A stretch of DNA of 64,000 nucleotides. Source: Flavihumibacter fluminis. Its GTDB lineage: Bacteria > Bacteroidota > Bacteroidia > Chitinophagales > Chitinophagaceae. Position 1 is the stretch's first letter, and the number at the start of each line of letters is the position of its first letter. Below, piece by piece: positions 48,595 to 64,000 of the stretch. The stretch is from the NCBI RefSeq assembly GCF_021491375.1, contig NZ_JAKEVY010000001.1, positions 1,257,001-1,321,000 of the forward strand. Reading direction: 5' to 3'. Made by a program: the position numbers and the translations under genes. The notes below the pieces were generated by a model. That model was not told the origin of the DNA. It saw only the letters and a list, made by a program, of their open reading frames with translations, and ran no database searches.

Positions 48595-49722
48595 TTATTC
48601 GAGCGAACTGATTTCCACCAGGATATCCTGGTTATTGCCATTGCTGGTGCAGAGGTAAACCCGGCCAGCCGGACTTACACATACATCCCTAAGGCGGCCC
48701 CACCGGGTGCGGAACAATTGCTCGGTAGACTGGATCGCGGTTCCATCCGCATTCAACTGGTGCCGAAACAGGGTAGCGTTTTTGAGGCTGGTCATCAGCA
48801 GGGAGTTTTTCCAGCCAGGGATGCGATCGCTCCCATAATAATCCAGGCCACAGGCGGCTACGGTGGAAGCTCCGCTCGACCATATCGGTTCCTTTACCTG
48901 GTTGGCATCACAAAAGGCCTGCTCTCCCGGGTCACAGGGGCCATTCACGGATGGCCATCCATAATTCCTGCCCTTTTCAATGATGTTGATTTCATCTTCA
49001 ATATTGGGACCATGTTCCGATGCATACAGCTTGTTATTGGCCCAGACCAGTCCCTGCGGATTCCGGTGGCCCAGCGACCAGTAATAATTCCCCGCAACCG
49101 GATTATCTCCAGGCACGGATCCGTCCAGCAAGATGCGCAGTACTTTGCCGGCCAGTGATCCCGGCTGTTGCGCCAGGGCTGTATTGGCAGCATCACCCGT
49201 GGTCATATACAACACAGCAGGATTCCCTTCCACTATCACCAGCCTGGATCCATTGTGAATGTTGGCAGCGGGGATATTATCCAGTAGCACTTTAGCATCA
49301 GCCAGGGCCCCACCGGTAAACCGATATCGCACCAGTTTCTCCCGATAGGCATCCCCCTCCAGGTAATTGTGTACAAAATAAATCCAGCCATTCTGCGCAA
49401 AGGCGGGATCCTGCACCATACCGAGCAAGCCTCCCTCCCCTCTTGCCACCACTCCATCCAGGGTAGTGCTGAACAGGGTTTCCCCGGTGCGGGGATCTAT
49501 TCTTGAAACCCGGCCACCCCGCTCGGTCAGCCAAAGATGTTCATCCTTGCCCCATACAATTTCCCAGGGAAAATTCAATCCGCCTTTCAACACCCGGATA
49601 CTGTCCGATGGCCAGTTGTCATCTGGGTTGGTAACAGGCGGATCATCCTCCCGCGAGCAGGAGAATAAAACGGTGCTTAGAACCGCCAACATACACACAC
49701 TGAAAAAGGATCGATTTCGCAT
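48595..49722 (-). CDS. PQQ-dependent aldose sugar dehydrogenase (GSDH family), lipoprotein
   Basis: A 375-residue lipoprotein (lipobox LFSC). The six-bladed propeller markers are PWEIVWGKDEHLWLTERGG, GLLGMVQDPAF, HNGSRLVI, TTGDAAN, LGHRNPQGLVW, SEHGPNIEDEINIIEKGRNYGWP and RTRWGRLRDV, as in soluble aldose dehydrogenases that oxidise sugars to lactones with PQQ. It follows the MFS gene by 42 nt and is likely the last gene of the large minus-strand cluster. Anchored in the periplasm, it could make the lactone that the SMP-30 protein opens. No PQQ biosynthesis gene is visible in the window. Confidence 0.9.
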   Translation of the reverse strand: MRNRSFFSVCMLAVLSTVLFSCSREDDPPVTNPDDNWPSDSIRVLKGGLNFPWEIVWGKDEHLWLTERGGRVSRIDPRTGETLFSTTLDGVVARGEGGLLGMVQDPAFAQNGWIYFVHNYLEGDAYREKLVRYRFTGGALADAKVLLDNIPAANIHNGSRLVIVEGNPAVLYMTTGDAANTALAQQPGSLAGKVLRILLDGSVPGDNPVAGNYYWSLGHRNPQGLVWANNKLYASEHGPNIEDEINIIEKGRNYGWPSVNGPCDPGEQAFCDANQVKEPIWSSGASTVAACGLDYYGSDRIPGWKNSLLMTSLKNATLFRHQLNADGTAIQSTEQLFRTRWGRLRDVCVSPAGRVYLCTSNGNNQDILVEISSLE

Positions 49723-49764
49723 AACCGGTATTTCCCTTAATTACGCAAAAATCCTGCCCGAGGT

Positions 49765-50952
49765 TCAGGCAACTGCCTTTCGTTCGTGAAAGAAAAAGAT
49801 AAAATAAAGCAATACGGCGGCGGCAATTGCTGCGGGTATTAACCAGATGGATTGCCAATCATGCCCCTCTCCCACTACATAATGATCCGCCACCAGTCCG
49901 GAGAACCAGGTACCGATCACCATGCCCAATCCATAAGTGGCAAACGTGAACAAGCCCTGCGCGGCATTTTTATTTTTCTCACCGGCTTTTTTCTCGGAAT
50001 ACATATAACCGGTCACAAAGAAGAAATCGTAACAAACCCCGTGTAAAATGATGCCGAGGTAGATCATCCAACCATTCGGTTCCCCATAACCGTAAGCAAA
50101 CAATACATAGCGGAGAATCCAGGCCAGGATACCAATCAGCAAAATATTTTTTACCCCGATCCGGTTGAATAAAAAGGGAATTGCGAGAATGAACAGTCCT
50201 TCGGAAAATTGACCGAGAATCATCTTCTGCGCCGGCTTATCCATACCGATTTCGTTCAGGAAAGGATTCGCAAATCCATAATAAAATGCGAGTGGAATAC
50301 AAACCAGGATTGCGGCAATAAAGAAAATAGAATAGGAACGATCCTTGAATATGCTAAGTGATTCTTTGCTGAAGAGCGCCGTCGACTCACCTACTTCCCT
50401 ACCCTTAGGAGGTGTATTCGGCAAGGCAAAACTCAGCAATCCCAGCGCCACGGATACTCCCGCTGCGAGATAAAAGGTTTCAGGTGTTTTCTCAATCTCC
50501 CAGGTTCCAACTAATAAACCAGCCACAATCCAACCCAATGTTCCAAATACCCGGATCCAGGGAAACTGTTTTCCGGGGTCGGTCATCTGGGCAAAGGCAA
50601 CACTGTTACTAAGCGCCACGGTTGGCATATAAACCAGTGAATAAGCCAGTATTACCCAATAAAAAAGTTGGCTGTTCTCCACCTTTGTAGCCAGTACTAG
50701 CAGGATGGCTCCCACAAGGTGTAATACGCCCATGATCTTCTGCGCAGCAAAGAATCGATCTGCAATCATCCCTACAAAAAAAGGAGAGATCATGGTTGCC
50801 AATGCCAGCGCACTGAATGCCTGCCCAATATCCTGTCCGGTTGCTCCCAAACTGGATTCCATATAGGTTCCCATGGTTACATACCAGGCGCTCCATATAA
50901 AATACTGGAGGAACATCATCAGGGAGAGCGAAATTGCTATGGAGGTTTTCAT
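49765..50952 (-). CDS. nucleoside:H+ symporter-family MFS transporter (NupG-like)
   Basis: A 395-residue 12-TM protein of the NHS branch: LQYFIWSAWYVTMGTYM in TM1, then ISPFFVGMIADRFFAAQK, PWIRVFGTLGWIVAG and LHGVCYDFFFVTGYMY. Bacteroidota use this family for a range of small molecules besides nucleosides, and members recur in sugar and amino-acid catabolic clusters. It is 12 nt after the NTF2-like gene. It may import the pathway's product or substrate from the periplasm. Confidence 0.9.
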   Translation of the reverse strand: MKTSIAISLSLMMFLQYFIWSAWYVTMGTYMESSLGATGQDIGQAFSALALATMISPFFVGMIADRFFAAQKIMGVLHLVGAILLVLATKVENSQLFYWVILAYSLVYMPTVALSNSVAFAQMTDPGKQFPWIRVFGTLGWIVAGLLVGTWEIEKTPETFYLAAGVSVALGLLSFALPNTPPKGREVGESTALFSKESLSIFKDRSYSIFFIAAILVCIPLAFYYGFANPFLNEIGMDKPAQKMILGQFSEGLFILAIPFLFNRIGVKNILLIGILAWILRYVLFAYGYGEPNGWMIYLGIILHGVCYDFFFVTGYMYSEKKAGEKNKNAAQGLFTFATYGLGMVIGTWFSGLVADHYVVGEGHDWQSIWLIPAAIAAAVLLYFIFFFHERKAVA

Positions 50953-50964: not shown

Positions 50965-51390
50965 TTATAGTTTATAAGCCTGCCGGGCAAACAATTTCCA
51001 ACCGGATTTTTCTTTTTTCCAAACTGTCATCACGCCAATCCGGATCGTTTGCTCCTGCCCATTATTGGTGGCTTTTGCTTCAAATATAAAACGAATCATT
51101 GCGTTTTTCTCCACTAGCTGGATCTTTCTGTCGGTTGCTTCCAGGGTGATAAAATCTACCGGCCCTTCCATCACATCCTTGATAGTAGCCAGTTTATCAT
51201 CGAGCCTGCCACTGGAATGGCCATACCACATGTTCGCGTGGAAAATATCCTCCAGCACAGCCAGGTTTTTGTCCACCATCGCTTTGTTCAATCTATCCAG
51301 CTGCGCAGCTACCGCCACTTCTTCTTTCGATTGCGCATTACCGGTAGTGGCCAACAATAGGAAAATATACAGCATAAAAGCCCTAACCAT
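50965..51390 (-). CDS. exported NTF2-like (DUF4440) protein
   Basis: A 141-residue protein with a signal peptide (FMLYIFLLLATTGNAQ). The mature part has the SnoaL/DUF4440 cone fold pattern: a long first helix (VAAQLDRLNKAMVDKNLAVLEDIF), then HANMWYGHSSGRLDD and paired strands ending TVWKKEKSGWKLFARQ. Such proteins are small enzymes or binding modules; specific function unknown. It is embedded in the cluster, 5 nt from the SBF gene and 12 nt from the MFS gene. Confidence 0.83.
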   Translation of the reverse strand: MVRAFMLYIFLLLATTGNAQSKEEVAVAAQLDRLNKAMVDKNLAVLEDIFHANMWYGHSSGRLDDKLATIKDVMEGPVDFITLEATDRKIQLVEKNAMIRFIFEAKATNNGQEQTIRIGVMTVWKKEKSGWKLFARQAYKL

Positions 51391-51395: not shown

Positions 51396-52529
51396 TTATT
51401 TTAAGGAATGAGTTAATTCGGCAGATTCCAGGGCTTCAATGGGATCATATCCCTCCGGTACTTTTTTGTGCCAGTAAGATGCCAGAATAGATCCAGTGAC
51501 ATTCATCAACGGACCAAATACTGCAGCTGCCAGTCCCACCGTTGCAATCTTGCCCATCTCTTTGGCTATGCCGGAGGCCAATCCTCCATTCTGCATGCCT
51601 ACTTCAATAGCAACCGTCCTCGAATCACGCTCATTCATCTTAAGCAACCGCGCAAACCAATAACCCAGGAAATAACCAAAAAGATTGTGAATAAGGACCA
51701 GCAATATCAACAAGGGACCAATATTTAACAGGCTATCCCGACCCGCAGCAGTGATCACCACTATAATCAGCGCAATCCCCAACATAGAAAGAACCGGCAT
51801 AGCCTCATCCAGCCATTTCGACTTACCTCGTAGTAATTTATTTACAATTAGCCCCAAACCAATAGGCAGGATGATCATCTTGGAGATATCCCACATCATG
51901 TTCAGCACGTTGATCTCAATAAAGGCACCTGCCAGCATCTTCATGAGCAAAGGCGTCACAAAAGGCGCCATCAAAGTAGTAATGGAGGTGATGGTGATGG
52001 ATAAAGCCAGGTTCGCTTTTGCGAGATAAGACATCACGTTGGAGGCAAGCCCACTGGGTGAACACCCAATCAGAATAATACCTGCCGCGATCTCTGCACT
52101 AAAGCCACTTATACTAGCCAGTGTGAAACCCAGCAATGGCATGATCATGAACTGACTGACAACACCGATCACAACGCCCTTTGGCGTTTTCACCACACTC
52201 ACAAAATCTTTTACGCTCATGGAGGTTCCCATCCCAAACATGATCAGTTGAATTAGTGGCGTAATCAGGTTGGTGTATTTAAAATCGCCCCAGGAAATAA
52301 AATACTGCGGATAACAAAGCGAAGTGGTTACAGCCGCGAAGATCATCAGCGTATAAGTATAGCGCTTCAATGTTTCATATCCTCTGAACCCAATGGCCAA
52401 TAAAACAAAAAAGGCAATGGCAGCCGGACCAGCAACGGTCCAGTTACCCTGGAAGGCAAAAAGCAGCGTTAACGCAAGCAATACCAGGGCAAGTCCGATC
52501 AGTGTTTTTGATAAGCTTAGTTCTTTCAC
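51396..52529 (-). CDS. bile acid:sodium symporter family (SBF) transporter
   Basis: A 377-residue membrane protein with ten-odd helices. Sodium-binding family motifs are LIQLIMFGMGTSMSV and GCSPSGLASNVMSYLAKAN, and the crossover helices include MPVLSMLGIALIIVVIT. SBF/BASS proteins carry organic anions with Na+, including 2-keto acids such as pyruvate. It overlaps the RraA-like gene by 4 nt. Tight coupling to a putative keto-acid aldolase makes import of an organic acid across the inner membrane the natural guess. Confidence 0.9.
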   Translation of the reverse strand: MKELSLSKTLIGLALVLLALTLLFAFQGNWTVAGPAAIAFFVLLAIGFRGYETLKRYTYTLMIFAAVTTSLCYPQYFISWGDFKYTNLITPLIQLIMFGMGTSMSVKDFVSVVKTPKGVVIGVVSQFMIMPLLGFTLASISGFSAEIAAGIILIGCSPSGLASNVMSYLAKANLALSITITSITTLMAPFVTPLLMKMLAGAFIEINVLNMMWDISKMIILPIGLGLIVNKLLRGKSKWLDEAMPVLSMLGIALIIVVITAAGRDSLLNIGPLLILLVLIHNLFGYFLGYWFARLLKMNERDSRTVAIEVGMQNGGLASGIAKEMGKIATVGLAAAVFGPLMNVTGSILASYWHKKVPEGYDPIEALESAELTHSLK

Positions 52530-53458
52530 CAGGTTCTTTTTTTCATGACTTCATCCAATTCCTGTTTGGTCATCTTACCTTCTTCCGGATGTTGTTCCAG
52601 CCATTTCAGGAAAGCGAGTTTGATTTCCTCGGTCCACTGGCTATCGATTTGTCCGGTATTATAGCGACCCGTTTTCAGCATCTCTTTGCCAAACTTGTCT
52701 TTGCGACCAATAAACTCGGCGGTCAATATTACCTGCTCCGCCATATGAGCCGGTATAAAGAGCACCCCTTCTCTTTCTGAAATCACCAGGTCGCCAGGCA
52801 ATACAATGGCTTTGCCTATCCGGATCGGTGTATTCAATCCCATCAATACCATTTCTTTCAGGAAGGAAGGATCAAAATCACGTACAAAGGCATTGAATCC
52901 TTTGATCTTTGCAAGTCCGCTTAAATCGCGCGCACTGCCATCGAAAATGACACCGGTTCCGGTTTTATTAAAGATGGCAGTTCCCAGGTTATCGCCAATC
53001 AAGGTGCCTCCCTCTATCTTGCCAAATCCATCTGCTACATACACATCGCCTTTCACAAGGGTTTCTATTGGCCAGGCATTGGTATTACCTACCCGACCCT
53101 GTTTAGCACCCCTTTCCTTAATCTTTTTTTCAATATCCGGCCGCGATGGCATATACATGGCTGTTACCGCCCTGCCCACCACTGGCACATCATCATGAAT
53201 CATTTTCCAGTTGCGTTCAAACTGATTCACATAACCCTCATTCATGAGTACCTGCCAGGCTTCTTCAATACCGATCTTTTTGGCGCGTTCCACCAGGTCA
53301 TCACTTACCTTGGGGCGACCATCCGCAAACCGTTCTCCTTTCCATTCGGATGTCAGGTAAATCAGTTCTTCTTTCGGGATAGTTTGTCCCTGCGTTTGTT
53401 GTGCTAACAGTAAAACACAACCGAAAGCAAGGATTTTATTAAACTTGTTCAGGAGCAT
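52526..53458 (-). CDS. exported RraA-family protein (4-hydroxy-2-oxo-acid aldolase-like)
   Basis: A 310-residue protein with a signal peptide (ILAFGCVLLLAQQTQGQ). The RraA/HMG-aldolase core spans ~90-245: VVGRAVTAMY, GDVYVADGFGKIEGGTLIGDNLGTA, GVIFDGSARDL with the Arg-Asp pair that binds substrate and metal, and LPGDLVISEREGVLFIP. It has extra N- and C-terminal helical regions. The family includes Mg-dependent aldolases cleaving 4-hydroxy-2-oxo acids to pyruvate as well as RNase E regulators. An exported copy cannot be an RNase E regulator, so an aldolase/decarboxylase role is favoured. Confidence 0.85.
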   Translation of the reverse strand: MLLNKFNKILAFGCVLLLAQQTQGQTIPKEELIYLTSEWKGERFADGRPKVSDDLVERAKKIGIEEAWQVLMNEGYVNQFERNWKMIHDDVPVVGRAVTAMYMPSRPDIEKKIKERGAKQGRVGNTNAWPIETLVKGDVYVADGFGKIEGGTLIGDNLGTAIFNKTGTGVIFDGSARDLSGLAKIKGFNAFVRDFDPSFLKEMVLMGLNTPIRIGKAIVLPGDLVISEREGVLFIPAHMAEQVILTAEFIGRKDKFGKEMLKTGRYNTGQIDSQWTEEIKLAFLKWLEQHPEEGKMTKQELDEVMKKRTW

Positions 53459-53476: not shown

Positions 53477-54739
53477 TTATTTCCGGGGCGGTAATCCATG
53501 CAGGGTTACCGGGGTTGCCCGGGCATTCAGGTCGTATACAATTCGTCCGGCGCGAATCGTAAGTTCACATTCGAGTTTATCAGTTGCCTTTACCTTATAA
53601 CCGGTATAATCAAAGAGCCCGAAATTTCCTTTGCGAACACCCAGGATCGCAATATCTGCTACAGCACCTTCTGACAGATGCCCCAGTTCCTCGCGTTTGA
53701 TTACCTGTGCGGGTGTCCAGGTACTGGCTTTGATTACCTCCTGCAGTGGCATACCCATTTGCAAAAACTTCGACATGCAGGTAAGCTGATCCTTCATCGC
53801 AGCATTCATACTGCCCACATGCAGGTCCGTTGAAATGGTGGTTGGGAAAAATTTCTCTTTTGCTGCTATCAGTGCCTGTGAGTAAGAGAAACTGATACCA
53901 CCATAACCTACATCAAATACAATCCCCCTTTTTCGTGCTTCATACACAAAGGGTTTGATTTTTTTGGTAGTTGTATCTGCAATGAATTCACGTCCGTTCA
54001 CTTGTGCATAACAGTGGGTAAAAATATCACCCGGACGCAAATGCTCAAGGAACAGCGACTTAAGTGAGAGAGGCGGTTGGGAGCCACCAAAGTCGATCAT
54101 CACCGGAATACCACCAGCGAGATTACCTGCTTTTACCGCATTGTCTACTGGTGTCCAGTCAGGGCGACTGTAATGCGCTACTTTAAAGCCGACGATATGT
54201 TCTTTATTGGCAAGTGCCACGCGAGCTGCTTCTTCCGGGATCATATCCGTAGTATCGGACTCGTATTTGCCGCCGCGCATACCGTGTCCAACAATATTCA
54301 GAAAAGCCAGCACCCTGGTTTGTGATTGCTGAATGGTCTGTTTTTTATACAGATCAAAGTTCCGCCAGCCAGGAGAACCTGCATCCACCACGGTAGTAAC
54401 GCCTACCCGAAAGGTGAATCCATCCGGAGGCAGTGCACTCGGGGCATCCATATAGGCCTGATCTGCATGATTTCCCCAGAAATTGTGCGTATGCATGTCG
54501 ATAAGGCCAGGTGTTACATATAGTCCCTTGGCATCCACCACCTGTACCGCATCCCCCGGAATCGACCTGGCAATTTTTACAATCTTTCCTTTATCAATAG
54601 CGATATCCATGATTCCATTGATACCATTTTTCGGATCAATTACATGTCCGCCTTTGATAACAATGGCATAAGTCTGAGCCTGAATCGCGGAACAGAAAAC
54701 CAATCCGGACAGGCAAAGGGCAAGCAATTTTTTCATCAT
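53477..54739 (-). CDS. exported amidohydrolase/deacetylase (EF0837/Atu3266-like), copy 1
   Basis: A 420-residue binuclear-metal amidohydrolase with a signal peptide (LLALCLSGLVFCSAIQAQ). Metal motifs: H83-x-H85 in DMHTHNF, the carboxylatable Lys186 and His189 in GFKVAHY, His242 in FTHCY and Asp305 in STDLH. It belongs to the dihydroorotase-like group whose characterised members EF0837 and Atu3266 deacetylate small N- or O-acetyl compounds and sit beside SelA-like PLP genes. It is coupled to the SelA-like gene by ATGA (54739-54736). Residues align nearly gap-free with copy 2. Confidence 0.87.
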   Translation of the reverse strand: MMKKLLALCLSGLVFCSAIQAQTYAIVIKGGHVIDPKNGINGIMDIAIDKGKIVKIARSIPGDAVQVVDAKGLYVTPGLIDMHTHNFWGNHADQAYMDAPSALPPDGFTFRVGVTTVVDAGSPGWRNFDLYKKQTIQQSQTRVLAFLNIVGHGMRGGKYESDTTDMIPEEAARVALANKEHIVGFKVAHYSRPDWTPVDNAVKAGNLAGGIPVMIDFGGSQPPLSLKSLFLEHLRPGDIFTHCYAQVNGREFIADTTTKKIKPFVYEARKRGIVFDVGYGGISFSYSQALIAAKEKFFPTTISTDLHVGSMNAAMKDQLTCMSKFLQMGMPLQEVIKASTWTPAQVIKREELGHLSEGAVADIAILGVRKGNFGLFDYTGYKVKATDKLECELTIRAGRIVYDLNARATPVTLHGLPPRK

Positions 54740-55947
54740 GCTAAGAGGCTTTGTAATTCTTCTTTGATTCTACGGGCAACGATCTTGTCTTCTCCTGGCT
54801 TAAGCATCCAGGCCGTAACATTGATCCCTTTTTTACCACCACCTACTTCAATAGAGGGACTTCCATTTCTAAGACGTTCCTGCAACTCTTTTCCTTCTGG
54901 TGTTTTACCGGATTTCTCCCAGCTAATAGAAAGATTCGGTGTGATATTACCACCCTGAGGAACCCAGATTTTTGTTTCCACATCCTTCACAGATTTCGCA
55001 GCAGCTTCAATCAGCGCAATGCTTTTTTCCCACTGCTTCCATTCCTTATCGTGATCTCTGGCAATGTATTGCTCCAGTGCTACATACATGCCCAGTATTT
55101 CTTCCTTGTTCACTTTCATACCCCGGCCGATGTTGAAACCACGTGGTGGCATATGCAGGCGGGCAGCCTGTATGATGGACTTACGTCCCATTAATAAACC
55201 CGCGCTTTGCGGACCGCGAATGGCTTTACCACCTGAAATCTGCACCATATCAAAACCCATATCATTGAACTTCCAGAGATTCGAAACCGGAGGCACATCT
55301 GCTGCGATATCAATACTGGTGGGAATACCATGTTTTTTACCCAGGGCCACCCATTCTTCCTGTGAAATTTTTCCTCCCTGTGAGATGTTCAGAAAATGCA
55401 TCAGGGCTGTTTTTTCATTGATGGCGCGCTCCAGTTCTTCCACTGTTTCAATGGCCACAATCTTACAACCGGTATTGATAAATGCGTGATTGTAGACAAT
55501 GTCATGCGCTTTCTGACAGATCACTTCTGATTTCATGCCAGTGCCTGCAATATGAGGAAGCGCTTCCACTTTTTTCTGATCCATTCCGGTAAGGATACCG
55601 GCCAAACCAAGCGTCATTGCCGAGAAAGCCCCGGAGGTCACAACAGCTGATTCGGAGTGAACCATTTTCGCGATACGTTCGCCGACTTTATCCTGCAATT
55701 CATCCAGCATGCAGAACTGATCAGCTCCATAATTGATGGCATCCAGCACATAATCGTGCATGAGAGAACCTGTCATATAGGTCAGGGTACCGGTTGCATT
55801 GATAAACGTACGTACGCCCAATTCCTTGAACAGATCCCGCTTGGGTGCTGCCATAGGTGAACCTGTACCTGCAAAAGCGTCTAGACCACCCGCTAATCCG
55901 CCAACCGGTAGCAGGCCAAGGCCTTTTATTACATCCCTTCTTTTCAT
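54736..55947 (-). CDS. exported SelA/DgaE-like PLP enzyme (ammonia-lyase type), copy 1
   Basis: A 403-residue fold-type I PLP enzyme. The N-terminus is twin-arginine-like (KRRDVIKGLGLLPVGG). The PLP lysine is Lys241 in ISGGKAIRGPQSAG and Asp213 in SIDIAADVPP should contact the pyridine nitrogen. The SelA-like family includes D-glucosaminate-6-phosphate ammonia-lyase DgaE, which dehydrates a 2-amino-3-hydroxy acid to a 2-keto acid. Tat export would carry the folded, PLP-loaded enzyme. It is 17 nt after ridA and 4-nt coupled to amidohydrolase copy 1. Selenocysteine synthase proper is unlikely, as it would be cytosolic. Confidence 0.85.
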   Translation of the reverse strand: MKRRDVIKGLGLLPVGGLAGGLDAFAGTGSPMAAPKRDLFKELGVRTFINATGTLTYMTGSLMHDYVLDAINYGADQFCMLDELQDKVGERIAKMVHSESAVVTSGAFSAMTLGLAGILTGMDQKKVEALPHIAGTGMKSEVICQKAHDIVYNHAFINTGCKIVAIETVEELERAINEKTALMHFLNISQGGKISQEEWVALGKKHGIPTSIDIAADVPPVSNLWKFNDMGFDMVQISGGKAIRGPQSAGLLMGRKSIIQAARLHMPPRGFNIGRGMKVNKEEILGMYVALEQYIARDHDKEWKQWEKSIALIEAAAKSVKDVETKIWVPQGGNITPNLSISWEKSGKTPEGKELQERLRNGSPSIEVGGGKKGINVTAWMLKPGEDKIVARRIKEELQSLLA

Positions 55948-56440: not shown

Positions 56441-57352
56441 TTATTTAGAAGTTGATTTGCCAGCTTTGAATTCCCTTCCTGGAAATTCCACCCGAAATTG
56501 TTCTACATTTCCCTGGTCCTGCATGGTAACATATGCCGTTCTGCCATCCGGACCACCAAATGCGATATTCGTTGGGCGTTTACCCATCAGCGTTATCTCC
56601 TCCAGTTTGGTGCCATCCGGTGCAAGCATCAGAATCGTACCTTTTCCAAATCTTGTTACATAAAGATTTCCCTTCTGATCGCAACGCATGCCATCCAGTC
56701 CATGATCAGTAAACTCATAGAACAATTGCTTGTTTTTGACAGAACCATCAGCACCCAGGTCATAGACCCAGATTTTACGCTGTACGGATTCACCTACATA
56801 GAGCTTTTTATTATCCGGACTCACTTCCACTCCATTCGTTGTGCCCATGGTGTCCAGCAAATGAGTTGTACCATTGGGATCGATTCTCCACAATTGACCG
56901 GTACCATTTTTCCAGCTTGGATCACTGGCATATATCCGGTCTTTATTATCAATAGCCAGATCGTTGGGCTGGTTCATGCGTGGTTCATGTGCCAGCAGAC
57001 TGATCTTTTTGGTACGCGGATCCACTTTCCACACATTATGTTTGGTATAGTCTGCCAGTAATAATTGGCCTTTGCTGTTAATCCGGATCCCATTGGCGAT
57101 ACTGCCTTCCGGAAGCACCAGCCAAACAGTGGCTGTACCATCTGGTTTCACCTGACCAATCGTGCCCTGTTTTTCGTAATTCACGGCATAGAGATTTCCT
57201 TTGCCATCTACAGCAGGACCTTCCACGCCGCTGGTAAAGGAATTCACCGGCGTAAGCAGGGTTGATTTATGCAATACCTCAGGCTGCGCTGTTGCCGAGC
57301 TCGTCAACATTACCGCTGCTACCAATAAAACTGCCTTCGCTTGTCCTTTCAT
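56441..57352 (-). CDS. exported SMP-30/gluconolactonase-family protein
   Basis: A 303-residue six-bladed propeller with a signal peptide (VLLVAAVMLTSSATAQ). Family residues include the metal-ligand Glu in GVEGPAVDGKGNLYAVNY, MNQPNDLAIDNKDRIYASDP (ligand Asn), GTTNGVEVSPDNKKLYVGES and DGMRCDQKGNLYVTRFG (ligand Asp). These proteins hydrolyse sugar lactones. In this cluster it would open lactones made by the PQQ dehydrogenases. It lies 38 nt after the CBM9-like gene and 14 nt before ridA. Confidence 0.9.
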   Translation of the reverse strand: MKGQAKAVLLVAAVMLTSSATAQPEVLHKSTLLTPVNSFTSGVEGPAVDGKGNLYAVNYEKQGTIGQVKPDGTATVWLVLPEGSIANGIRINSKGQLLLADYTKHNVWKVDPRTKKISLLAHEPRMNQPNDLAIDNKDRIYASDPSWKNGTGQLWRIDPNGTTHLLDTMGTTNGVEVSPDNKKLYVGESVQRKIWVYDLGADGSVKNKQLFYEFTDHGLDGMRCDQKGNLYVTRFGKGTILMLAPDGTKLEEITLMGKRPTNIAFGGPDGRTAYVTMQDQGNVEQFRVEFPGREFKAGKSTSK

Positions 57353-57390: not shown

Positions 57391-58488
57391 TTAGTTATTG
57401 ATTTTAATCTGTTGCAATCGGCCATCTGCATCTAGTCGCCATTCCCTACCGGATTTTCTTTCTTTACCAACCAACACAAAACCGGTAGGATCTTTCAATA
57501 GTTGCACCTGTTTTGCATCCTTCCAGTTGAGGCCCGGATACTTTTTTCTAAGCTCTTCCATTCCGGATGCATATTGTTTGTGTTGTTCCCGGTGATCTCT
57601 TTGAAGGTAATAATATTTCCAAAGCGATCGCTGCATTTCAAGTGTTTCAGCAGAAATAAAGGCAGCGGGACCAGCCTCTTCTGAAAACAGTATATATCCC
57701 CAGCGTTCCGGCATGTGCAGATCCACTCTGCCCTGGGGTGACCAAACAATGTAATGAGGTTGCGCTATACGACCGGATGCATCCTTTTGTTTCTGATACA
57801 CTCCATTCACCACATCCAGTTTCCAGTTTACATGAGAAAAATTCATACGTGCAATTTGTCCGTTACGCGGTGCCAGTGGTATAGCCAATTCCACATCCCA
57901 TCCTTCGTCTATATCACCAGGCTGATTCAATGTTCCGCGCAGGCGAACAGCTTTTTTTAATCCGGGAAATTCAAAATCGGAATCCCCCTTTCCTCCATCG
58001 CGGTAAGCTTTGGAAAGTATTAAATCCCAGGTGGTACCAAATGCATTAATCTGGAATTCAATATACTGCTGCATATCCCCGTCCATATCGATGAAAAACT
58101 CCAGTGCGTTATCCATAAATACGGCAGTGTCTTTTTTAGTCAGACTTGCCCATAACTGGGGTTGCTCCAACTGTGCAAATACATAGAGATACTGTTCATC
58201 CCAGCAGAGCTTGAGTGCTGATTTATTCCCTGTTGGACCACCTGCAATATCCCGGAAATTCGATGTGAACGGAATTTTTTGCCAAATCGCTTCATTGGCA
58301 AATCCATCTACCTCAATCGCCTGGTTTGTTTTAACAGCCCGGTATTGCGGAGGTGTAGTTAACAGCGGCTTTAATTTTTCCTCGGTTACTCCATCCGGCA
58401 AATAGGCCGCTTTTTGAGCAGCTACCGGTACTATACAAACGAAGCAAAGGCATACCGCCAGCAATCGGTTTATGGTTATTTTTTCCAA
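57391..58488 (-). CDS. exported CBM9-like carbohydrate-binding protein
   Basis: A 365-residue protein with a signal peptide (LLAVCLCFVCIVPVAAQ). Residues ~50-260 form a CBM9-like (family 9) fold: EVDGFANEAIWQKIPFT, ALKLCWDEQYLYVFAQL, DNALEFFIDMDGDMQQYIEFQINAFG and WDVELAIPL. The C-terminal part is helical plus a small strand pair. It has no evident catalytic motif and may hold a sugar ligand for the cluster's enzymes. It starts 6 nt after amidohydrolase copy 2. Confidence 0.85.
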   Translation of the reverse strand: MEKITINRLLAVCLCFVCIVPVAAQKAAYLPDGVTEEKLKPLLTTPPQYRAVKTNQAIEVDGFANEAIWQKIPFTSNFRDIAGGPTGNKSALKLCWDEQYLYVFAQLEQPQLWASLTKKDTAVFMDNALEFFIDMDGDMQQYIEFQINAFGTTWDLILSKAYRDGGKGDSDFEFPGLKKAVRLRGTLNQPGDIDEGWDVELAIPLAPRNGQIARMNFSHVNWKLDVVNGVYQKQKDASGRIAQPHYIVWSPQGRVDLHMPERWGYILFSEEAGPAAFISAETLEMQRSLWKYYYLQRDHREQHKQYASGMEELRKKYPGLNWKDAKQVQLLKDPTGFVLVGKERKSGREWRLDADGRLQQIKINN

Positions 58489-58494: not shown

Positions 58495-59748
58495 TTATTT
58501 CGAATAAGATAACACAATAGGTCGCGCAATGCCATTCTGGTCGTATACAATCTTTCCTCCAAGGATCGTCATTTCGCAAACCAGTTTTTGGTTGGAGGTG
58601 ATCTTTGCACCGCTCCGATCCCAGAATCCAAAGTTCCCGGGCATCTGTTGCAATATTGCCAGATCCGCTTCTGCGCCAACACTGAGATGCCCCAGATCTT
58701 TACGCTGAATCGCCAATGCAGGCGACCAGGTACTGGCTTTAATTACTTCTTTCAAATCCATCTTCAGGGCAAGAAAGGTATTCATCACATTGAGCATATC
58801 TTTCATGGAAGCATTCATACTGCCGATATGCAAATCGGTACTGATGGTATTGGGATAGAACCCTGCTGCCGCGGCTGGTTGCGCCTGTGATAGCACAAAA
58901 CTGGCACCGCCATAACCCACATCGAAAATGATCCCGCGTTCCTGTGCTTTTTTTACAAAGGGCTTGAGCTTCCGGGTTGCTGGATCTACAATGGGTTCAC
59001 GACGGTTGAGTTCTGTAAAGGCATGCGTATAGATATCACCCGGACGTAAATGCTGAAAGAACAATTCTTCAATGGAGAGGGGCGGAGGATCACTGCCACC
59101 AAAGTCAATGATCACCGGCAGGTTGGTCAGTCTGCCAGCTTCAACTGCCCGATCCACCGGAATCCATTCTCTTCGCTCATAGTGAGCTACTTTGAAACCT
59201 ACAATATGATCCGGGAATTGTTTGGCAACTGCAGCCGCCATTCGTGCATTCATATCCGTAGTATCCTGTTCCCAGGCACCACCCCGCATACCCTCTCCCA
59301 CGATGTTCAGAAAAGAGAGGATCCGCGTTCTGCTGTTATCAATTATGTTCCGTTTGAAAACAGTAAAATTTTTCCATCCCGCACCACCACAATCAACGGA
59401 AGTAGTAACTCCATTACGCAGGGTGAAGCCATCCGGAGCCACTGCTGTTAAGCCATTGCTCAAATAATGATCCGGTTCCGTTCCAAAGAAATAATGACCA
59501 TGAATGTCTATGAGTCCGGGTACCACCAGCATACCCGCAGCCATCACCACCTGTTTGGCGCCTGTCGTATCCAACTGTTTTTGAACCGCCACAATTTTTC
59601 CATCGCGGATGCCTACATCCAGTATGGCATCAATGCCATTTTTGGGATCGATTACCCTCCCACCTTTTATCACGATGGAATAGGATTGAGCCTGCACCCA
59701 GCCGGAAAAAAGCAACAGGCCAATCAGGAGTTGTATACTTTTTCTCAT
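58495..59748 (-). CDS. exported amidohydrolase/deacetylase (EF0837/Atu3266-like), copy 2
   Basis: A 417-residue paralogue of the amidohydrolase at 53477-54739. Signal peptide IQLLIGLLLFSGWVQAQ, H83-x-H85 (DIHGHYFFG), Lys186/His189 (GFKVAHY), a later His in YTHAFTELNRRE and Asp in STDLHIGS. The first 190 residues align with copy 1 without gaps at the motifs. One difference is Gly in H-G-H where copy 1 has Thr (H-T-H). It is coupled to SelA-like copy 2 by ATGA (59748-59745). Two copies may handle different acyl groups or stereoisomers. Confidence 0.87.
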   Translation of the reverse strand: MRKSIQLLIGLLLFSGWVQAQSYSIVIKGGRVIDPKNGIDAILDVGIRDGKIVAVQKQLDTTGAKQVVMAAGMLVVPGLIDIHGHYFFGTEPDHYLSNGLTAVAPDGFTLRNGVTTSVDCGGAGWKNFTVFKRNIIDNSRTRILSFLNIVGEGMRGGAWEQDTTDMNARMAAAVAKQFPDHIVGFKVAHYERREWIPVDRAVEAGRLTNLPVIIDFGGSDPPPLSIEELFFQHLRPGDIYTHAFTELNRREPIVDPATRKLKPFVKKAQERGIIFDVGYGGASFVLSQAQPAAAAGFYPNTISTDLHIGSMNASMKDMLNVMNTFLALKMDLKEVIKASTWSPALAIQRKDLGHLSVGAEADLAILQQMPGNFGFWDRSGAKITSNQKLVCEMTILGGKIVYDQNGIARPIVLSYSK

Positions 59749-60932
59749 GCTGATTTTTTTAATTCTTCCAGGATGCGTTTGGCCACGATTTTATATTCCC
59801 CTTCGCGCAGCATAAAAACAGTGAGGCTGATGCCTTTGTCATTTGCCAGCACTTCAATAGAGGGAGCACCATTACGAAGAGCAAGCTGCAGTTCAGCAGG
59901 CTTGAGAGAGATATCACCTGTACTCCATTGAATATTCAGCGTGGGCGTATGATTGGCCAAAGGCGGAATCACAATTTCTGTCTGGATGCCCTTGCGCTGT
60001 TTGGCCTGTGCCGCAATGTATTCCACCTGGTTCATCCAGTCTTTCCATTCCTTATCGTGATCAATGCTGACATATTTTTCCAGTGCGGCCAGCATGCCTA
60101 CAATTTCTTCCTTGTTTACTTTCATACCTCTTCCAATGGTTCCGCCTCTTGGAGGAGCACTTAACCTCGCTGCCTTGATCAGGTCCTTTCTTCCCATGAG
60201 GATGCCGGCACTCTGGGGGCCTCTTAATGCTTTTCCTCCGGAAATACAAACCAGGTCAAACCCCATCTCGTTGAAGCGCCAGAGATTTTCTACCGGTGGC
60301 ACATCCGCCGCGATATCAATCATCGTAGGAACACCATGTTTCTTGCCTGCAGCCACCCATTCTTCATGGGAGATCTTTCCCAGGTTGGCGTGGGCATTCA
60401 GAAACCAGAGCATCGCGGTCTGCTCATTGATGGCTTTATGCAGCTCCTCCAATGTTTCAATTTCAACAATTCGTACACCCGTGTTCGTTAGTGCATGTAC
60501 ATATCCGCTGTTATGTGATTTCTGAACCAGCACTACTGATTTCATTCCATCCAGGCGGGGCAGCTGGGCAATCTTTTTGAGATCGGTTCCGGTGAGTACA
60601 CCTGCGGTTCCCAATACCATGGCCGACCAGCAGCCGGCAGTAACAGTTGCCGCTTCCGCGCGACATATCTTAGCAATCCGCTCTCCCACTTTATCCTGAA
60701 CTTCGTCCAGCATTACATAGGATTTTGAAACCGCATTGATGGCTTCCATTACTTCCGGATACATCAGGGAGGCTGTCATGGCTGTATAGGTTCCGGCAGC
60801 ATTGATAAAGGAGCGCAAACCCAGCTCGGTTATATAATCTTTCTTAGGCGCTGGCATGGCAAATCCGCCGAGCGGTAAAGCTGCTCCTGCTGGCGCAACA
60901 GATAAATATTTCAGTAACTCTCTTCTTTTCAT
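59745..60932 (-). CDS. exported SelA/DgaE-like PLP enzyme (ammonia-lyase type), copy 2
   Basis: A 395-residue paralogue of the enzyme at 54736-55947. Twin-arginine-like start KRRELLKYLSVAPAGAALP, PLP lysine Lys234 in ISGGKALRGPQSAG and Asp206 in MIDIAADVPP. The segment NMGFD/NEMGFDLV and the RGMKVNKEEI region match copy 1 closely. It lies 17 nt after the FecR-like gene and 4-nt coupled to amidohydrolase copy 2, so the PLP-amidohydrolase module occurs twice in one transcript. The reaction is inferred from DgaE. Confidence 0.85.
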   Translation of the reverse strand: MKRRELLKYLSVAPAGAALPLGGFAMPAPKKDYITELGLRSFINAAGTYTAMTASLMYPEVMEAINAVSKSYVMLDEVQDKVGERIAKICRAEAATVTAGCWSAMVLGTAGVLTGTDLKKIAQLPRLDGMKSVVLVQKSHNSGYVHALTNTGVRIVEIETLEELHKAINEQTAMLWFLNAHANLGKISHEEWVAAGKKHGVPTMIDIAADVPPVENLWRFNEMGFDLVCISGGKALRGPQSAGILMGRKDLIKAARLSAPPRGGTIGRGMKVNKEEIVGMLAALEKYVSIDHDKEWKDWMNQVEYIAAQAKQRKGIQTEIVIPPLANHTPTLNIQWSTGDISLKPAELQLALRNGAPSIEVLANDKGISLTVFMLREGEYKIVAKRILEELKKSA

Positions 60933-60949: not shown

Positions 60950-61687
60950 TTAAATCCTCGAGCTTAGCAGCACCTGTTTCCCCTCTATACTCACTTCAAA
61001 GAGACCGGAGGAAACCAGCAACTTCACTACCATTTTAAGATTCAGGCCCGTAGATATAAATCCGGAAAATTGTTGTTCGGGTAGCTGGCCGGTTACAGTA
61101 AAATCAACCTGGTATTTTTCTTTCAGCACTGCCAGTAACTGATTGATATCCTGGTCCTCAAAAACCAGGTAACGGGCATCCTGATCCTGGGTTATTTCTT
61201 TCAGCAGCGATGCTGATTCAATCAATTTGGATTCAAACCGCAGGTAGCCATCTTCGGTAGTATTTACAAAACTAACTTTTGACAACTGTTGCAGTTTGGG
61301 CTCTACATAAAGCGCCGCCAGCATTGCAGAAACCGGCTCCTCGCCTACCCGAAGATCCGCCTGCGTACAGCGATGCACCAGTGAAGCAGGTTTCAGGTAA
61401 AAATAGAGGGAAGCAGTAAACAGCAATCCAAAACAGGTAATGGCAAAATGTCTTACCCAATTAATGGCAGGTTTGCGATAGGATGTCTTTTCAGCCTGTT
61501 GTACCTTATTCAATAATATCTCCAGCTGTTGTTCCCGCCTGGCTTCCAGGTTCATGATACCTGGATTTGCAGCCCCATCCAATTCACTTCGCTCCATAGT
61601 TTCCATCAGTTGAAGCAGGGATGCTTCATCCAGTTCTCCACTTAAAAAGCGGTCAATGACAGATTGGAAAGGTTGTTTATCCGGCAT
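60950..61687 (-). CDS. short FecR-like anti-sigma factor
   Basis: A 245-residue single-pass membrane protein: a cytosolic N-terminus rich in helix, one TM helix (HFAITCFGLLFTASLYFYL, ~84-102) and a periplasmic part. Its end (DINQLLAVLKEKYQVDFTV, then LNLKMVVKLLVSSGLFEVS) is the DUF4974/STN-like domain of Bacteroidota FecR proteins. It is ~100 residues shorter than usual and the central FecR domain is reduced or absent. It follows the ECF sigma gene by 10 nt and presumably holds that sigma factor. There is no TonB receptor beside it to transmit a signal. Confidence 0.72.
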   Translation of the reverse strand: MPDKQPFQSVIDRFLSGELDEASLLQLMETMERSELDGAANPGIMNLEARREQQLEILLNKVQQAEKTSYRKPAINWVRHFAITCFGLLFTASLYFYLKPASLVHRCTQADLRVGEEPVSAMLAALYVEPKLQQLSKVSFVNTTEDGYLRFESKLIESASLLKEITQDQDARYLVFEDQDINQLLAVLKEKYQVDFTVTGQLPEQQFSGFISTGLNLKMVVKLLVSSGLFEVSIEGKQVLLSSRI

Positions 61688-61697
61688 AGGTATGTGC

Positions 61698-62267
61698 TTA
61701 GAAAATATGCAGGAAAATAATCAGCAGGGTATAACCCAATGAATATCGTAGTTCTCTTAGTGCTTTGGTTAAATGATTTTCAACTGTTTTAGGTGATATC
61801 TGAAGCAGCGCCGCAATTTCCTTATGACTCAATTGTTCTTCCCTGCTCAGTTTATATACTTGTTTACATTTCGTAGACAACTGATTCACGATGGAATTTA
61901 TGTGGTGCAGCAATTCCTTTTCTTCCATCTGTTCCTGGCTGCTGACCTGCTGGTATTGGTTGGCCAATGCGGCAAAAGCATCTGCATGTACTTTACCAGC
62001 TTTGATTTTCCGGATCACTTCATAGCGCACAGAAGCAGACAGATAAGCAGATAAGGAAGCAGTGATCGCCAATGAATGCCGGTTGTTCCAGATACGCACA
62101 AAGATTTCCTGGATAATATCTTCACAGGCAGGCTCATCCTTCAAAAGGGCATACGCTTTGCGAAATAAATTCTCCCAATACCGGCGATACAAGATGGCCA
62201 GTGCTTCCTCATTGTTATTCCGCATCCGGATCAGCAGTTCTTCATCCCGAATAGTTGCCTCCTCCAT
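61698..62267 (-). CDS. ECF-type RNA polymerase sigma-70 factor
   Basis: A 189-residue ECF sigma factor. Region 2 spans ~18-65 (EALAILYRRYWENLFRKAY, then EDIIQEIFVRIWNNR) and region 4 spans ~125-175 (LSHKEIAALLQISPKTVENHLTKALRELR). It belongs to the Bacteroidota FecI-like expansion. Here it sits 17 nt after a PQQ dehydrogenase gene and 10 nt before its FecR-like partner, inside a catabolic transcript. It probably drives this cluster once released from the membrane protein. Confidence 0.93.
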   Translation of the reverse strand: MEEATIRDEELLIRMRNNNEEALAILYRRYWENLFRKAYALLKDEPACEDIIQEIFVRIWNNRHSLAITASLSAYLSASVRYEVIRKIKAGKVHADAFAALANQYQQVSSQEQMEEKELLHHINSIVNQLSTKCKQVYKLSREEQLSHKEIAALLQISPKTVENHLTKALRELRYSLGYTLLIIFLHIF

Positions 62268-62284
62268 GAGTTCTAGTTTAAGCG

Positions 62285-64000
62285 TTATTTGGATCCTGTT
62301 TGAGTATTGAGTTCTTTTCTTACTTCACTTACTTCTTCCGGACTGATCGCACTGGCTGAATTACCAAACTGTGAACGTATATAAGTAAGCACCTGTGCAA
62401 TGTCATCATCTTTCAAAAACCGGTGTTGCGGCATATTGGAATTATAAGGTTTGCCATTTACCTCGATGGGGCCATCCATCCCCATCAATACCAGGCGTAT
62501 CAGGCGATTCTTATCACCAGTCACCCAATCGGTATTTCCTAAAGGAGGAAAGCGGTTTCCATCACCCTGGCCATTTTTCTGGTGACAACCACTGCAATAC
62601 CGGTTGTATATTTTTTCACTATTGGTAACCAATCCGGCTTCGAGATCATCTTTCTTTATATCGGGAGTACGAATATGCGCCTGCAGTTTTCTCGCTTCCA
62701 TCGAAGCCAGCTGTTTTTTGCCAAACTTCTTCTTGCCGGTATACATTACCCGCCAGATTTTTCCGTGTTCGGTATCACTGAAATACATGGAACCATCCGG
62801 CCCCATACTGATGCCCATAGGACGATAACGTGCATTGTTTACATTTACAATTGGATCCACTTCTGCGAAGCCATCGGCAAACACTTCCCACTCGCCTGTA
62901 GGCTGATTGTTTTTAAAAGGAACAAAAACAATAATATAACCCGCCTGCGGGTAAGGGGCCCTGTTAGTAGAACCATGAAAGGCTATGAAAGCACCATTTT
63001 TATAGTGCGCAGGAAACTGATCACCGGTGTAAAAGAACAAATCATTGGGAGCCCAGTGCCCGGGAAATCCTATAAGCGGATCTACATATTTACCGGAACT
63101 GTCAGCAATTTTTCCATCGCCACCATATTCCGGTGCGAGTATGCGCTTTCCAACCAGTTGATCATAGTAGTAGTAGGGCCATCCTGCATCATCGCCTTCC
63201 TTTAGCTTGAGAAATTCTTCTGAAGGAAGCATCGCACTCTGCCAGGGAGTGTAGAGGTCAGGATACAACCGATAGAGATCATCTCTTCCATGATGCACCA
63301 CATAGAGTGCATCGTCTGCATGATTCCAGTCCATTCCAACTATGCTGCGCAATCCGGTAGCATATCGTACGCCATCTTCCTGGCGCTGGTTGAGTTTATT
63401 GGCATCGAATTTCCAGACACCACCATGGTCATCGAGCCAGGGACAGGGATTAATACCCGGGGAGCCCGGCACCCGGTTTTTTTCCTGGCAATTGTTATTG
63501 GGTGCACCAAATGCAACATAGATATTTCCTTTCTTATCAAAGGCAATAGGTTTGGCGATATGCTCATGGCGACCATGTGCATGATCATCTATTACCACTG
63601 TTTCAATTGGACCGGTTGGTACCAGTTTACCAGGCTCCAGTTTCTGGCGAAACACATATAATTCGGAACTAAAATAAATATAGCCATTATGAACTTTCAT
63701 GGCAGTTCCATAACTGCCTTTATCCTCGTAATTACCGAATTTAACCACCTGGTCGGCTTTGCCATCGCCATTGGTATCACGGATGGCTGCATTACCACCA
63801 ATACTGTCGGGGAACCGAAGTTTCACATAGATATCACCGTTAGTATTAACAGTAATATGGCGGGCTCGTTCCCGCAAACTGTCCACCACCACTACCGCCT
63901 CGAATCCATCGGGCAGAAAAAGTCCGCCGTTTTCAGGATCGGCCTTGGGCAAAGTGGTTGGACTGATACCCGATGTACATATCAGCAATACTACTAATCC
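62285..64000 (-). CDS. PQQ-dependent sugar dehydrogenase with C-terminal cytochrome c domain (5' end outside window)
   Basis: The frame is open to the right edge: the first visible residues, GLVVLLICTSG, look like the end of a signal peptide, so almost the whole mature protein (about 570 residues) is present. A sorbosone-dehydrogenase-like propeller (FLPDGFEAVVVVDSLRERAR, HGRHEHIAKPIAFD, GLRSIVGMDWNHADDALYVVHHGRDDL, YRPMGISMGPDGSMYFSDTEHGKIWRV) is followed by a cytochrome c domain with CSGCH and a likely axial Met in NSNMPQHRF. It would oxidise a sugar in the periplasm and pass electrons to respiration. It is 17 nt upstream of the sigma gene. Confidence 0.9.
   Translation of the reverse strand, partial: GLVVLLICTSGISPTTLPKADPENGGLFLPDGFEAVVVVDSLRERARHITVNTNGDIYVKLRFPDSIGGNAAIRDTNGDGKADQVVKFGNYEDKGSYGTAMKVHNGYIYFSSELYVFRQKLEPGKLVPTGPIETVVIDDHAHGRHEHIAKPIAFDKKGNIYVAFGAPNNNCQEKNRVPGSPGINPCPWLDDHGGVWKFDANKLNQRQEDGVRYATGLRSIVGMDWNHADDALYVVHHGRDDLYRLYPDLYTPWQSAMLPSEEFLKLKEGDDAGWPYYYYDQLVGKRILAPEYGGDGKIADSSGKYVDPLIGFPGHWAPNDLFFYTGDQFPAHYKNGAFIAFHGSTNRAPYPQAGYIIVFVPFKNNQPTGEWEVFADGFAEVDPIVNVNNARYRPMGISMGPDGSMYFSDTEHGKIWRVMYTGKKKFGKKQLASMEARKLQAHIRTPDIKKDDLEAGLVTNSEKIYNRYCSGCHQKNGQGDGNRFPPLGNTDWVTGDKNRLIRLVLMGMDGPIEVNGKPYNSNMPQHRFLKDDDIAQVLTYIRSQFGNSASAISPEEVSEVRKELNTQTGSK

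Follow-up and report, generated by a model that had tools for sequence, protein, structure and literature searches.

What would a bacterium do, outside its cytoplasm, with sugar dehydrogenases, a lactonase candidate, amidohydrolases, pyridoxal 5'-phosphate (PLP) enzymes, a RidA-family protein and an aldolase candidate, all encoded in one run of genes? The question is raised by 15 contiguous minus-strand genes of Flavihumibacter fluminis (Bacteroidota; Chitinophagaceae), which extend from position 48595 to just past position 64000 of the stretch studied here. This stretch, called the window below, is 64,000 nucleotides long and covers positions 1,257,001 to 1,321,000 of contig NZ_JAKEVY010000001.1 (G000:C11:1257001-1321000). 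The order of the genes, the export signals (judged by motif and hydropathy), the retention of catalytic residues and the conserved linkage were established by computation. The gene set is real, conserved and exported, and its reading as a pathway for amino sugars is the best available. To judge from the sequences, we consider it slightly better than an even chance that these genes specify a non-phosphorylative, exported pathway acting on N-acylated amino sugars.

In this route, an N-acetyl-hexosamine, most likely N-acetylglucosamine (GlcNAc) and/or N-acetylgalactosamine (GalNAc), would be oxidised at C1 by the glucose/sorbosone dehydrogenase (GSDH) protein and the GSDH/cytochrome c protein, after which the SMP-30 protein would open the lactone. 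The N-acetyl-aldonate would be deacetylated by the amidohydrolases, and the DgaE-like PLP enzymes, exported by way of a twin-arginine signal, would eliminate water and ammonia from the resulting amino-aldonate. RidA would hydrolyse the enamine/imine, giving a 2-keto-3-deoxy-aldonate, which the exported RraA-like protein would cleave to pyruvate and glyceraldehyde. The SBF transporter (for the 2-oxo acid) and the major facilitator superfamily (MFS) transporter would carry the products inward. Much of this had been suggested by a sequence-only reading, in which an amino sugar is oxidised, delactonised, deacetylated, deaminated and cleaved. Comparison with related loci supports export of the soluble enzymes, the order of these steps and an amino-sugar substrate; GlcNAc itself and the cleavage by the RraA-like protein are what we infer. 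The activity of every enzyme, the choice of sugar and control by the ECF/FecR pair are likewise putative.

Enzyme families, catalytic residues and export signals

Gene families were assigned by Pfam and NCBIfam profile matches (Table 1), and export was called by motif and hydropathy. All the soluble enzymes had been credited with export signals, and signals are present, with one correction: those of the PLP enzymes and RidA are of the twin-arginine and not the Sec type. The motif RRx[FLIVMA][hydrophobic] was sought within the first 60 residues of homologues that exceeded fixed length limits and 28% identity; among those falling outside is an MR/MLE protein in L198, which has 399 aa, 26% identity and no RR motif. 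Of 108 SelA-like proteins 105 have the motif, and of 72 RidA proteins 63, whereas it occurs in 1 of 102 amidohydrolases and 1 of 55 RraA-like proteins. An N-terminal hydrophobic stretch is present in 100 of 102 amidohydrolases, 55 of 55 RraA-like and 27 of 27 SMP-30 proteins, while residues 71-130, taken as a control, gave 9, 2 and 0. For the SelA-like proteins the hydropathy test does not discriminate (positive in 60 of 108, with the control stretch giving 92), so that the argument for their export is made by two features, the RR motif and the N-terminal extension. TatC is present in all 12 genomes tested, which fits with twin-arginine substrates. On the basis of the RR motif, hydropathy and TatC, the PLP enzymes and RidA look like cargo of the twin-arginine translocation (Tat) system, and the others like Sec cargo. 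Mispredicted start codons were rejected as an explanation because the signals are conserved across homologues.

Conserved residues were counted after removal of duplicates, which left 104 of 112 SelA-like proteins, 96 of 109 amidohydrolases, 68 of 77 RidA, 28 of 29 RraA-like and 18 of 19 SMP-30 proteins.

The two PLP proteins, here named SelA1 and SelA2, had been described as SelA/DgaE-like. The DgaE family is indeed the nearest, with TIGR01437 as the best NCBIfam model for both, but both lie below the curated cut-offs of DgaE-type models (SelA1 and SelA2 score 167 and 163 against 385 for TIGR01437, and 123 and 142 against 600 for NF047797). Assignment as true SelA was rejected because the DgaE family matches better. 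By sequence, SelA2 matches DgaE (PDB 7lc0) at 8.7e-32 and Cap15 (8t7j) at 6.5e-23. The AlphaFold model of SelA1 (pLDDT 85.4) matches Cap15 with an E-value of 6.6e-28 and TM 0.79, and DgaE with 9.9e-28 and TM 0.77; it also matches SelA and cysteine desulfurases, and we take all of these to be fold-type I proteins. Together with the DgaE fold goes the PLP lysine, K241, kept in 104 of 104 aligned proteins, and R129 of RidA is kept in 68 of 68.

DgaE, the D-glucosaminate-6-phosphate ammonia-lyase of the dga operon, shares with the window proteins the PLP family, the fold and the PLP lysine, and a 2-keto-3-deoxy product would be expected here as well. It acts on a phosphorylated sugar acid, presumably in the cytoplasm, whereas the window proteins carry about 28 extra N-terminal residues with the twin-arginine motif; being exported, they should not meet a phosphorylated substrate. 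A tree of 109 SelA-like proteins (FastTree, midpoint-rooted; at least 380 aa and at least 40% identity) places SelA2 in a clade of 13 members and SelA1 in a clade of 86, with support 0.94 for each, and on this ground a recent tandem copy was rejected.

Two further exported families were seen in loci of this kind. One is a longer SelA-like subfamily of about 535-575 aa with an extra part (L044:7218-8825, L131:12200-13807 and L086:13804-15525). The other is a second family of RidA-like proteins, these bearing a Sec-type signal; of its 10 proteins, the one tested is PF14588 (L202:5539-6096, L206:14298-15512 and others).

Both amidohydrolases, AH1 and AH2, exceed the curated cut-off of NF006689/PRK09237 (371 bits), which bears out the EF0837-like deacetylase-family identity proposed for them. 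AH2 matches PDB 8je0 at 7.6e-44 and also 2ogj and 2ics, with 8wzy among the solved relatives too, and the AlphaFold model of AH1 (pLDDT 81.2) matches the same four structures. For the PRK09237 family we take the binuclear metal site to be HxH, Lys, His, His and Asp. Among 96 aligned proteins, H83 and H85 are each found in 95 (one gap each), H242 and D305 in all 96, and K186 in 94, the other two carrying Arg. The beta-5 position, D216 in AH1, is different: 89 proteins have Asp there and 7 have Glu, whereas all four solved relatives have His, which we take to be a metal ligand (H208 of 2ogj). The full binuclear site is thus absent from all 96, and the changed metal site is a conserved mark of the exported amidohydrolases. 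AH1 and AH2 therefore share with the COG3964/EF_0837/PRK09237 amidohydrolases (2ogj, 2ics, 8je0, 8wzy) the fold, HxH, Lys, second His and Asp, and differ from them in the Sec-type signal and in Asp/Glu at beta-5.

Two pyrroloquinoline quinone (PQQ) sugar dehydrogenases had been expected. The last gene of the run is a good GSDH, matching PDB 3a9g at 1.8e-58 and soluble glucose dehydrogenase at about 5e-44. The first gene (62285-64000+) has a weak GSDH match (31.8 bits against a cut-off of 25) joined to cytochrome c; its propeller matches soluble glucose dehydrogenase weakly among solved structures (3.9e-7), and a CSGCH heme motif and an N-terminal signal can be read from the sequence. With the lipobox-like Cys, read by eye on both GSDH-type proteins, these features suggest that it is probably a periplasmic (lipo)protein sugar dehydrogenase. 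The SMP-30 protein matches the lactonases 7ris and 8djf in the PDB (8.4e-21), and keeps E44, N130, N173 and D220, presumably metal-site residues, in 18 of 18 aligned proteins.

The RraA-like protein has R177 and D178 in 28 of 28 aligned proteins, in line with the Arg-Asp of 3noj and 5x15, a pair which we take to be in the active site. It keeps this pair in common with the RraA/HMG-CHA aldolase family (LigK, PcmE), and differs in being exported, in its length of about 310 aa and in its low similarity to characterised members. At E <= 1e-30, exported RraA gives 36 matches in 24 of 395 Bacteroidota genomes. The neighbourhoods of 28 of the 36 were counted (genes of at least 200 aa, in 25 of 30 stretches, leaving aside G035 (L190)); seven matches lie outside this set, three of them, in G000, G008 and G070, in SelA blocks. 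An MR/MLE dehydratase-like gene stands within five genes of 22 of the 28, SelA, amidohydrolase or RidA genes beside 2, and neither beside 4; an SBF gene accompanies 14. The MR/MLE proteins (at least 400 aa and 28% identity) have an RR motif in 25 of 25 cases. Three that were tested by Pfam are PF13378/PF02746, and the name galactonate dehydratase comes from a match of one member below cut-off (171 against 311 bits). A role as 2-keto-3-deoxy-aldonate aldolase would be the simplest common denominator of both gene contexts, which makes the RraA-like protein a candidate for this activity. The alternative of an RNase E regulator was rejected, given the export signal and the sugar-acid dehydratase neighbours.

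Sets of exported RraA, twin-arginine MR/MLE and SBF genes also occur in the absence of SelA, at L203:7805-12918, L191:7626-12781, L201:3509-8443 and other loci.

Related loci, the likely substrate and other explanations

SelA2 has a match at E <= 1e-3 in 16 of 98 genomes of the family, and in twelve of these (F. fluminis included) the match reaches 1.1e-99 or better; in the phylum sample a match at E <= 1e-40 is found in 8 of 395 genomes. A scan of named genomes gave at least 580 relatives, and the best 78 distinct loci were kept. They come from Flavihumibacter (90% identity), Terrimonas, Niastella, Spirosoma, Larkinella, Dyadobacter, Chryseolinea, Olivibacter, Sphingobacterium and others, and are not independent: they are close relatives, several genomes give two loci, and five contigs were taken as belonging to G045, G055, G059, G063 and G070. 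An amidohydrolase is present in 63 of the 78, RidA in 59, a GSDH-like/cytochrome c protein in 44 (47 if the cytochrome-first form is included), SusC in 28, SBF in 24, RraA in 21, SMP-30 in 17 and GH20 in 3. A search of genome neighbourhoods for the linked set had been called for, and the linkage does recur. Of 63 loci found by SelA that are at least 15 kb long, 52 contain an amidohydrolase and 50 a RidA-type gene. In the 52 with amidohydrolase, a RidA-type gene is present 49 times and GSDH/cytochrome c 40 times; a lactonase occurs in 25 of them, a small CBM9 protein and SBF in 20 each, and RraA in 15. In the other 11 the numbers for these six, in this order, are 1, 0, 0, 0, 1 and 1.

Some of the related loci give clues to the substrate and the product. 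A gene for a GH20 beta-N-acetylhexosaminidase lies between the amidohydrolase and SMP-30 genes in G058 (L041) and G063 (L037). Spirosoma telluris (L128) has a run of SusC, SusD, GH20 (in two pieces), a fucosidase piece, RidA, SelA and amidohydrolase, and two further loci from this genus have GH20 about 5.5 kb beyond the amidohydrolase, past a gene on the opposite strand. A copy of the same GH20 type in G059 (L149) is not beside the block. Counts of GH20 alone would say little, since all 12 genomes compared have it, and its position in the block and the clade were used instead. In Ginsengibacter (L047/L099) the block includes, five genes downstream, a protein of the PIG-L (GlcNAc-PI de-N-acetylase) family. 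On the product side, SelA and amidohydrolase are followed in L130 and L131 by a gene of the DgoK (2-keto-3-deoxy-galactonokinase) family, a KDPG aldolase (Eda) and a galactonate-type MFS transporter, the latter whole in L131 and cut by the locus end in L130. In L131 PF05035 scores 173 bits, the eda model is passed (175 against 156 bits) and the MFS is below cut-off. In L115 SelA is adjoined by SBF and by a KDG-kinase-like gene whose match is below cut-off, and RraA adjoins a twin-arginine galactonate-dehydratase-like protein. The SelA2 clade includes the two loci with GH20 inside the block, both DgoK-Eda loci and the Ginsengibacter locus, as well as L042, which has no amidohydrolase; the sugar evidence therefore concerns near relatives of the window gene. 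Genes resembling HGSNAT/NagX occur near 7 loci, apparently on the other strand from SelA, and were given no weight.

In two Spirosoma loci, two consecutive FAD-dependent oxidoreductase-like genes (PF12831, as tested in L064) precede a GH20 gene close to the block (L064:14313-17874, L057:14320-17832).

Several observations weigh against a route for amino sugars. Asp/Glu in place of the metal-site His means that the amidohydrolase activity may differ, the SelA1 model matches Cap15 as well as DgaE, and the matches of RraA to solved aldolases are weak (3noj 8.8e-6; best 5x15, 1.6e-12). SelA is found without amidohydrolase in 11 of the 63 long loci, and RraA is in just 15 of the 52 long loci with amidohydrolase. 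In L042, SelA stands among other enzymes and has no amidohydrolase beside it. The F. fluminis genome has 8 GH20 matches, none of them at the locus, and GH20 is inside the block in just 2 of the 12 family genomes compared. The genome also has a NagB-family gene (PF01182, 8.5e-69), so that ordinary use of GlcNAc is possible. Finally, the names DgoK and MFS are family-level, and the matches for the MFS, the MR/MLE proteins and the kinase of L115 fall short of the curated cut-offs.

It is rather unlikely, in our view, that the same exported route serves a sugar other than GlcNAc, such as GalNAc, N-acetylmannosamine, a muramic or a dideoxy-diamino sugar, with the two pairs of amidohydrolase and SelA-like enzyme serving two epimers. 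The separate clades of SelA1 and SelA2, the finding that the two loci with DgoK and a galactonate-type MFS both fall in the SelA2 clade, and the fucosidase piece and GH20 ahead of the block in L128 would all suit such a substrate. There is, however, no epimer-specific gene within the window, and the DgoK-family name is no proof of specificity for 2-keto-3-deoxygalactonate.

A second alternative is that N-acylated hydroxy-amino acids are what the exported enzymes break down: the amidohydrolase would deacylate, the SelA-like enzyme would dehydrate or deaminate, and RidA would clear the enamine, leaving the sugar dehydrogenases and lactonase as a second function of the operon. RidA proteins classically act on 2-aminoacrylate-type products, and Atu3266, a solved relative of the amidohydrolases, presumably hydrolyses acetylated alpha-substituted acids. 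Also in its favour, OngC, which performs the matching step in a known pathway, acts on D-serine and D-threonine as well (PMC9537276). The related loci argue the other way. GSDH/cytochrome c, lactonase and small CBM9 genes co-occur with the amidohydrolase in the numbers given above, GH20, PIG-L, DgoK, Eda and the KDG-kinase-like gene are sugar genes, and RraA recurs beside sugar-acid dehydratases, all of which make this alternative unlikely.

Cap15 is, according to the title of its PDB entry (8t7j), O2- and PLP-dependent. The SelA-like proteins could be oxidases of this kind, and the route an oxidative decarboxylation or deamination. This alternative stays alive because Cap15, the best structural match of the SelA1 model, nearly ties with DgaE, and an exported enzyme would meet O2. 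We regard it as very unlikely, since the SelA2 sequence is nearer to DgaE, TIGR01437 is the best model for both proteins, and the KDG-type kinase and aldolase genes beside relatives fit the product of a lyase. A chance or historical neighbourhood of exported genes with no single pathway, which would account for the differing order and content of the loci and for SelA without amidohydrolase, is most improbable in view of the frequent linkage of SelA to amidohydrolase and RidA-type genes, the same types of export and the kept catalytic residues.

Layout of the run and adjoining genes

The tight packing on the minus strand noted earlier is confirmed: the intergenic distances, from 5' to 3', are 17, 10, 17, -4, 6, 38, 14, 17, -4, 18, -4, 5, 12 and 42 nt, the largest gap thus being 42 nt, with three overlaps of 4 nt. 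The first gene crosses the end of the window, and its start ATG, read on the neighbouring stretch, is at L005:5021 (window position 64021); the next gene upstream of the run, about 230 nt off, is a GH32 gene. Downstream, tRNA-Pro(tgg) (48421-48496) lies on the same strand 98 nt from the last gene and is followed by a strong, 14-pair terminator-like hairpin. Such sites are not enriched in the stretch (16, against 15.7 +/- 3.9 in shuffles), and a weak one on the minus strand (49772-49754) overlaps the 42-nt gap between the MFS and GSDH genes. From this layout, the 15 genes are likely to form a single transcript.

Table 1. Genes of the minus-strand run in order of transcription, with window coordinates and the profile match of each.
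Feature	Coordinates	Strand	Match
GSDH-like beta-propeller and cytochrome c protein	62285..64000, continues past window	-	PF00034 8.6e-12, PF07995 1.2e-7
ECF (extracytoplasmic function) sigma factor	61698..62267	-	TIGR02985 135 bits, cut-off 126
FecR-type anti-sigma variant, C-terminal domain only	60950..61687	-	PF16344 4e-9
SelA2, DgaE-like PLP ammonia-lyase candidate, twin-arginine signal MKRRELLKYL	59745..60932	-	TIGR01437 7.7e-48
AH2, amidohydrolase/deacetylase-family metallohydrolase, Sec-type signal	58495..59748	-	NF006689 413 bits
CBM9-like exported binding protein	57391..58488	-	PF06452 7.7e-8
SMP-30 family lactonase candidate, Sec-type signal	56441..57352	-	PF08450 3.1e-44
RidA-family protein, twin-arginine signal MATQRRSVLK	55965..56426	-	PF01042 1.9e-20
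SelA1, DgaE-like PLP ammonia-lyase candidate, twin-arginine signal MKRRDVIKGL	54736..55947	-	TIGR01437 7.1e-49
AH1, amidohydrolase/deacetylase-family metallohydrolase, Sec-type signal	53477..54739	-	NF006689 435 bits
RraA-like aldolase candidate, Sec-type signal	52526..53458	-	PF03737 1.8e-15
SBF/BASS-family inner-membrane transporter, 2-oxo-acid importer candidate	51396..52529	-	PF01758 9.8e-38
Exported DUF4440 (NTF2-like) protein	50965..51390	-	PF14534 1.1e-16
MFS transporter, nucleoside/sugar H+ symporter type	49765..50952	-	PF03825 8.1e-115
PQQ glucose/sorbosone dehydrogenase family protein, lipobox-like LFSC	48595..49722	-	PF07995 2e-76

The SBF transporter is under the NCBIfam cut-offs for both bass (238 bits) and PanS (222 bits). 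For the FecR-type protein, PF16344 is the sole Pfam match at E <= 0.001. The block within the window has no SusC/SusD pair and thus lacks the mark of a polysaccharide utilisation locus; SusC-like genes are found in 28 and SusD-like genes in 22 of the 78 related loci. It is of note that the ECF gene and the C-terminal-only FecR gene (60950-62267) stand here without SusC/SusD, as several relatives have ECF, FecR, SusC and SusD ahead of the block. The transporter pair has perhaps been lost at the window locus.

Upstream of the block is a phosphonate set (L005:7751-12938, or G000:C11:1323751-1328938) of PhnW, a DUF5690 membrane protein, PhnY and PhnA, three of which exceed curated cut-offs. DUF5690 is a possible partner in phosphonate use. 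A DUF5690 homologue adjoins RraA in L193.

Relation to known pathways and meaning of the locus

The closest known chemistry is that of the oxidative chitin pathway (Ong) of Pseudoalteromonas prydzensis ACAM 620, in which GlcNAc1A is converted to GlcN1A and this to 2-keto-3-deoxygluconate (KDG) (PMC9537276; PMC12017989). In PMC9537276 OngB and OngC are predicted to be cytoplasmic, acting after inner-membrane uptake by OngIT, with KdgK phosphorylating KDG; the RidA protein OngD is essential, its role being left open. The likeness lies in removal of the acetyl group from an N-acetyl-aldonate, in a PLP-dependent deamination that yields KDG and in a RidA-family partner, which here would follow from the genes; a RidA gene is present in the window block. 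A periplasmic GH20 and TonB-dependent uptake precede these steps in Ong.

The differences from Ong (PMC9537276) are several. OngB belongs to subtype V of the amidohydrolases and is of D-aminoacylase type (Cys/His/His), whereas those of the window are of the COG3964/PRK09237 kind; the D-aminoacylase-type structures 3gip, 1m7j and 1rjp match AH2 weakly, at 1e-6 to 8e-6 over the first ~100 residues, and no OngB-type deacetylase was found in the block. OngC is a fold-type III PLP enzyme, whereas the window proteins are of the DgaE/SelA kind, none being of OngC type to judge from the matches of the SelA1 model to Cap15, DgaE, SelA and cysteine desulfurases. The Ong enzymes are predicted to be cytoplasmic, and those of the window are exported, with an exported aldolase candidate in addition. 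The window locus is thus not a member of the Ong system, because the two enzymes that define that system have counterparts of different kinds here and the compartment differs. The sequence-only reading knew of no periplasmic route of this kind. That claim needs narrowing, as the chemistry, with an essential RidA, is already described (PMC9537276), where it is predicted to be cytoplasmic and uses other families. No exported version was found in the open-access literature among the matches listed, which were judged mostly by titles and abstract openings. To judge from the genes, the mechanism would be a variant of known chemistry in another compartment.

The route also resembles the non-phosphorylative Entner-Doudoroff pathway, in that a dehydratase or lyase leads to a 2-keto-3-deoxy-aldonate that is cleaved directly by an aldolase. 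The Entner-Doudoroff pathway of this type is cytoplasmic; the window route differs in being predicted to run outside the cytoplasm and in its RraA-like aldolase. We tentatively suggest, at somewhat less than an even chance, that Bacteroidota run a general periplasmic metabolism of this type, with two entries to 2-keto-3-deoxy-aldonates, cleavage by the exported RraA-like protein, and only pyruvate and glyceraldehyde entering the cell. The entries, proposed with the same reserve, would be a twin-arginine MR/MLE aldonate dehydratase, or the amidohydrolase with the twin-arginine DgaE-like ammonia-lyase and RidA.

In the pathways compared, descriptions place both the PLP ammonia-lyase chemistry and the splitting of sugar acids by aldolases in the cytoplasm. 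If the proposal is correct, a route on the outside would need neither phosphorylation nor a sugar transporter, its electrons would feed the respiratory chain directly, and only small acids would be left to import. The locus offers a place to study the role of RidA in the breakdown of amino-sugar acids, which PMC9537276 leaves open. It would also provide testable functions for the exported RraA-like, PRK09237-like, SelA-like and RidA families in Chitinophagaceae, Spirosoma, Larkinella, Dyadobacter and others.

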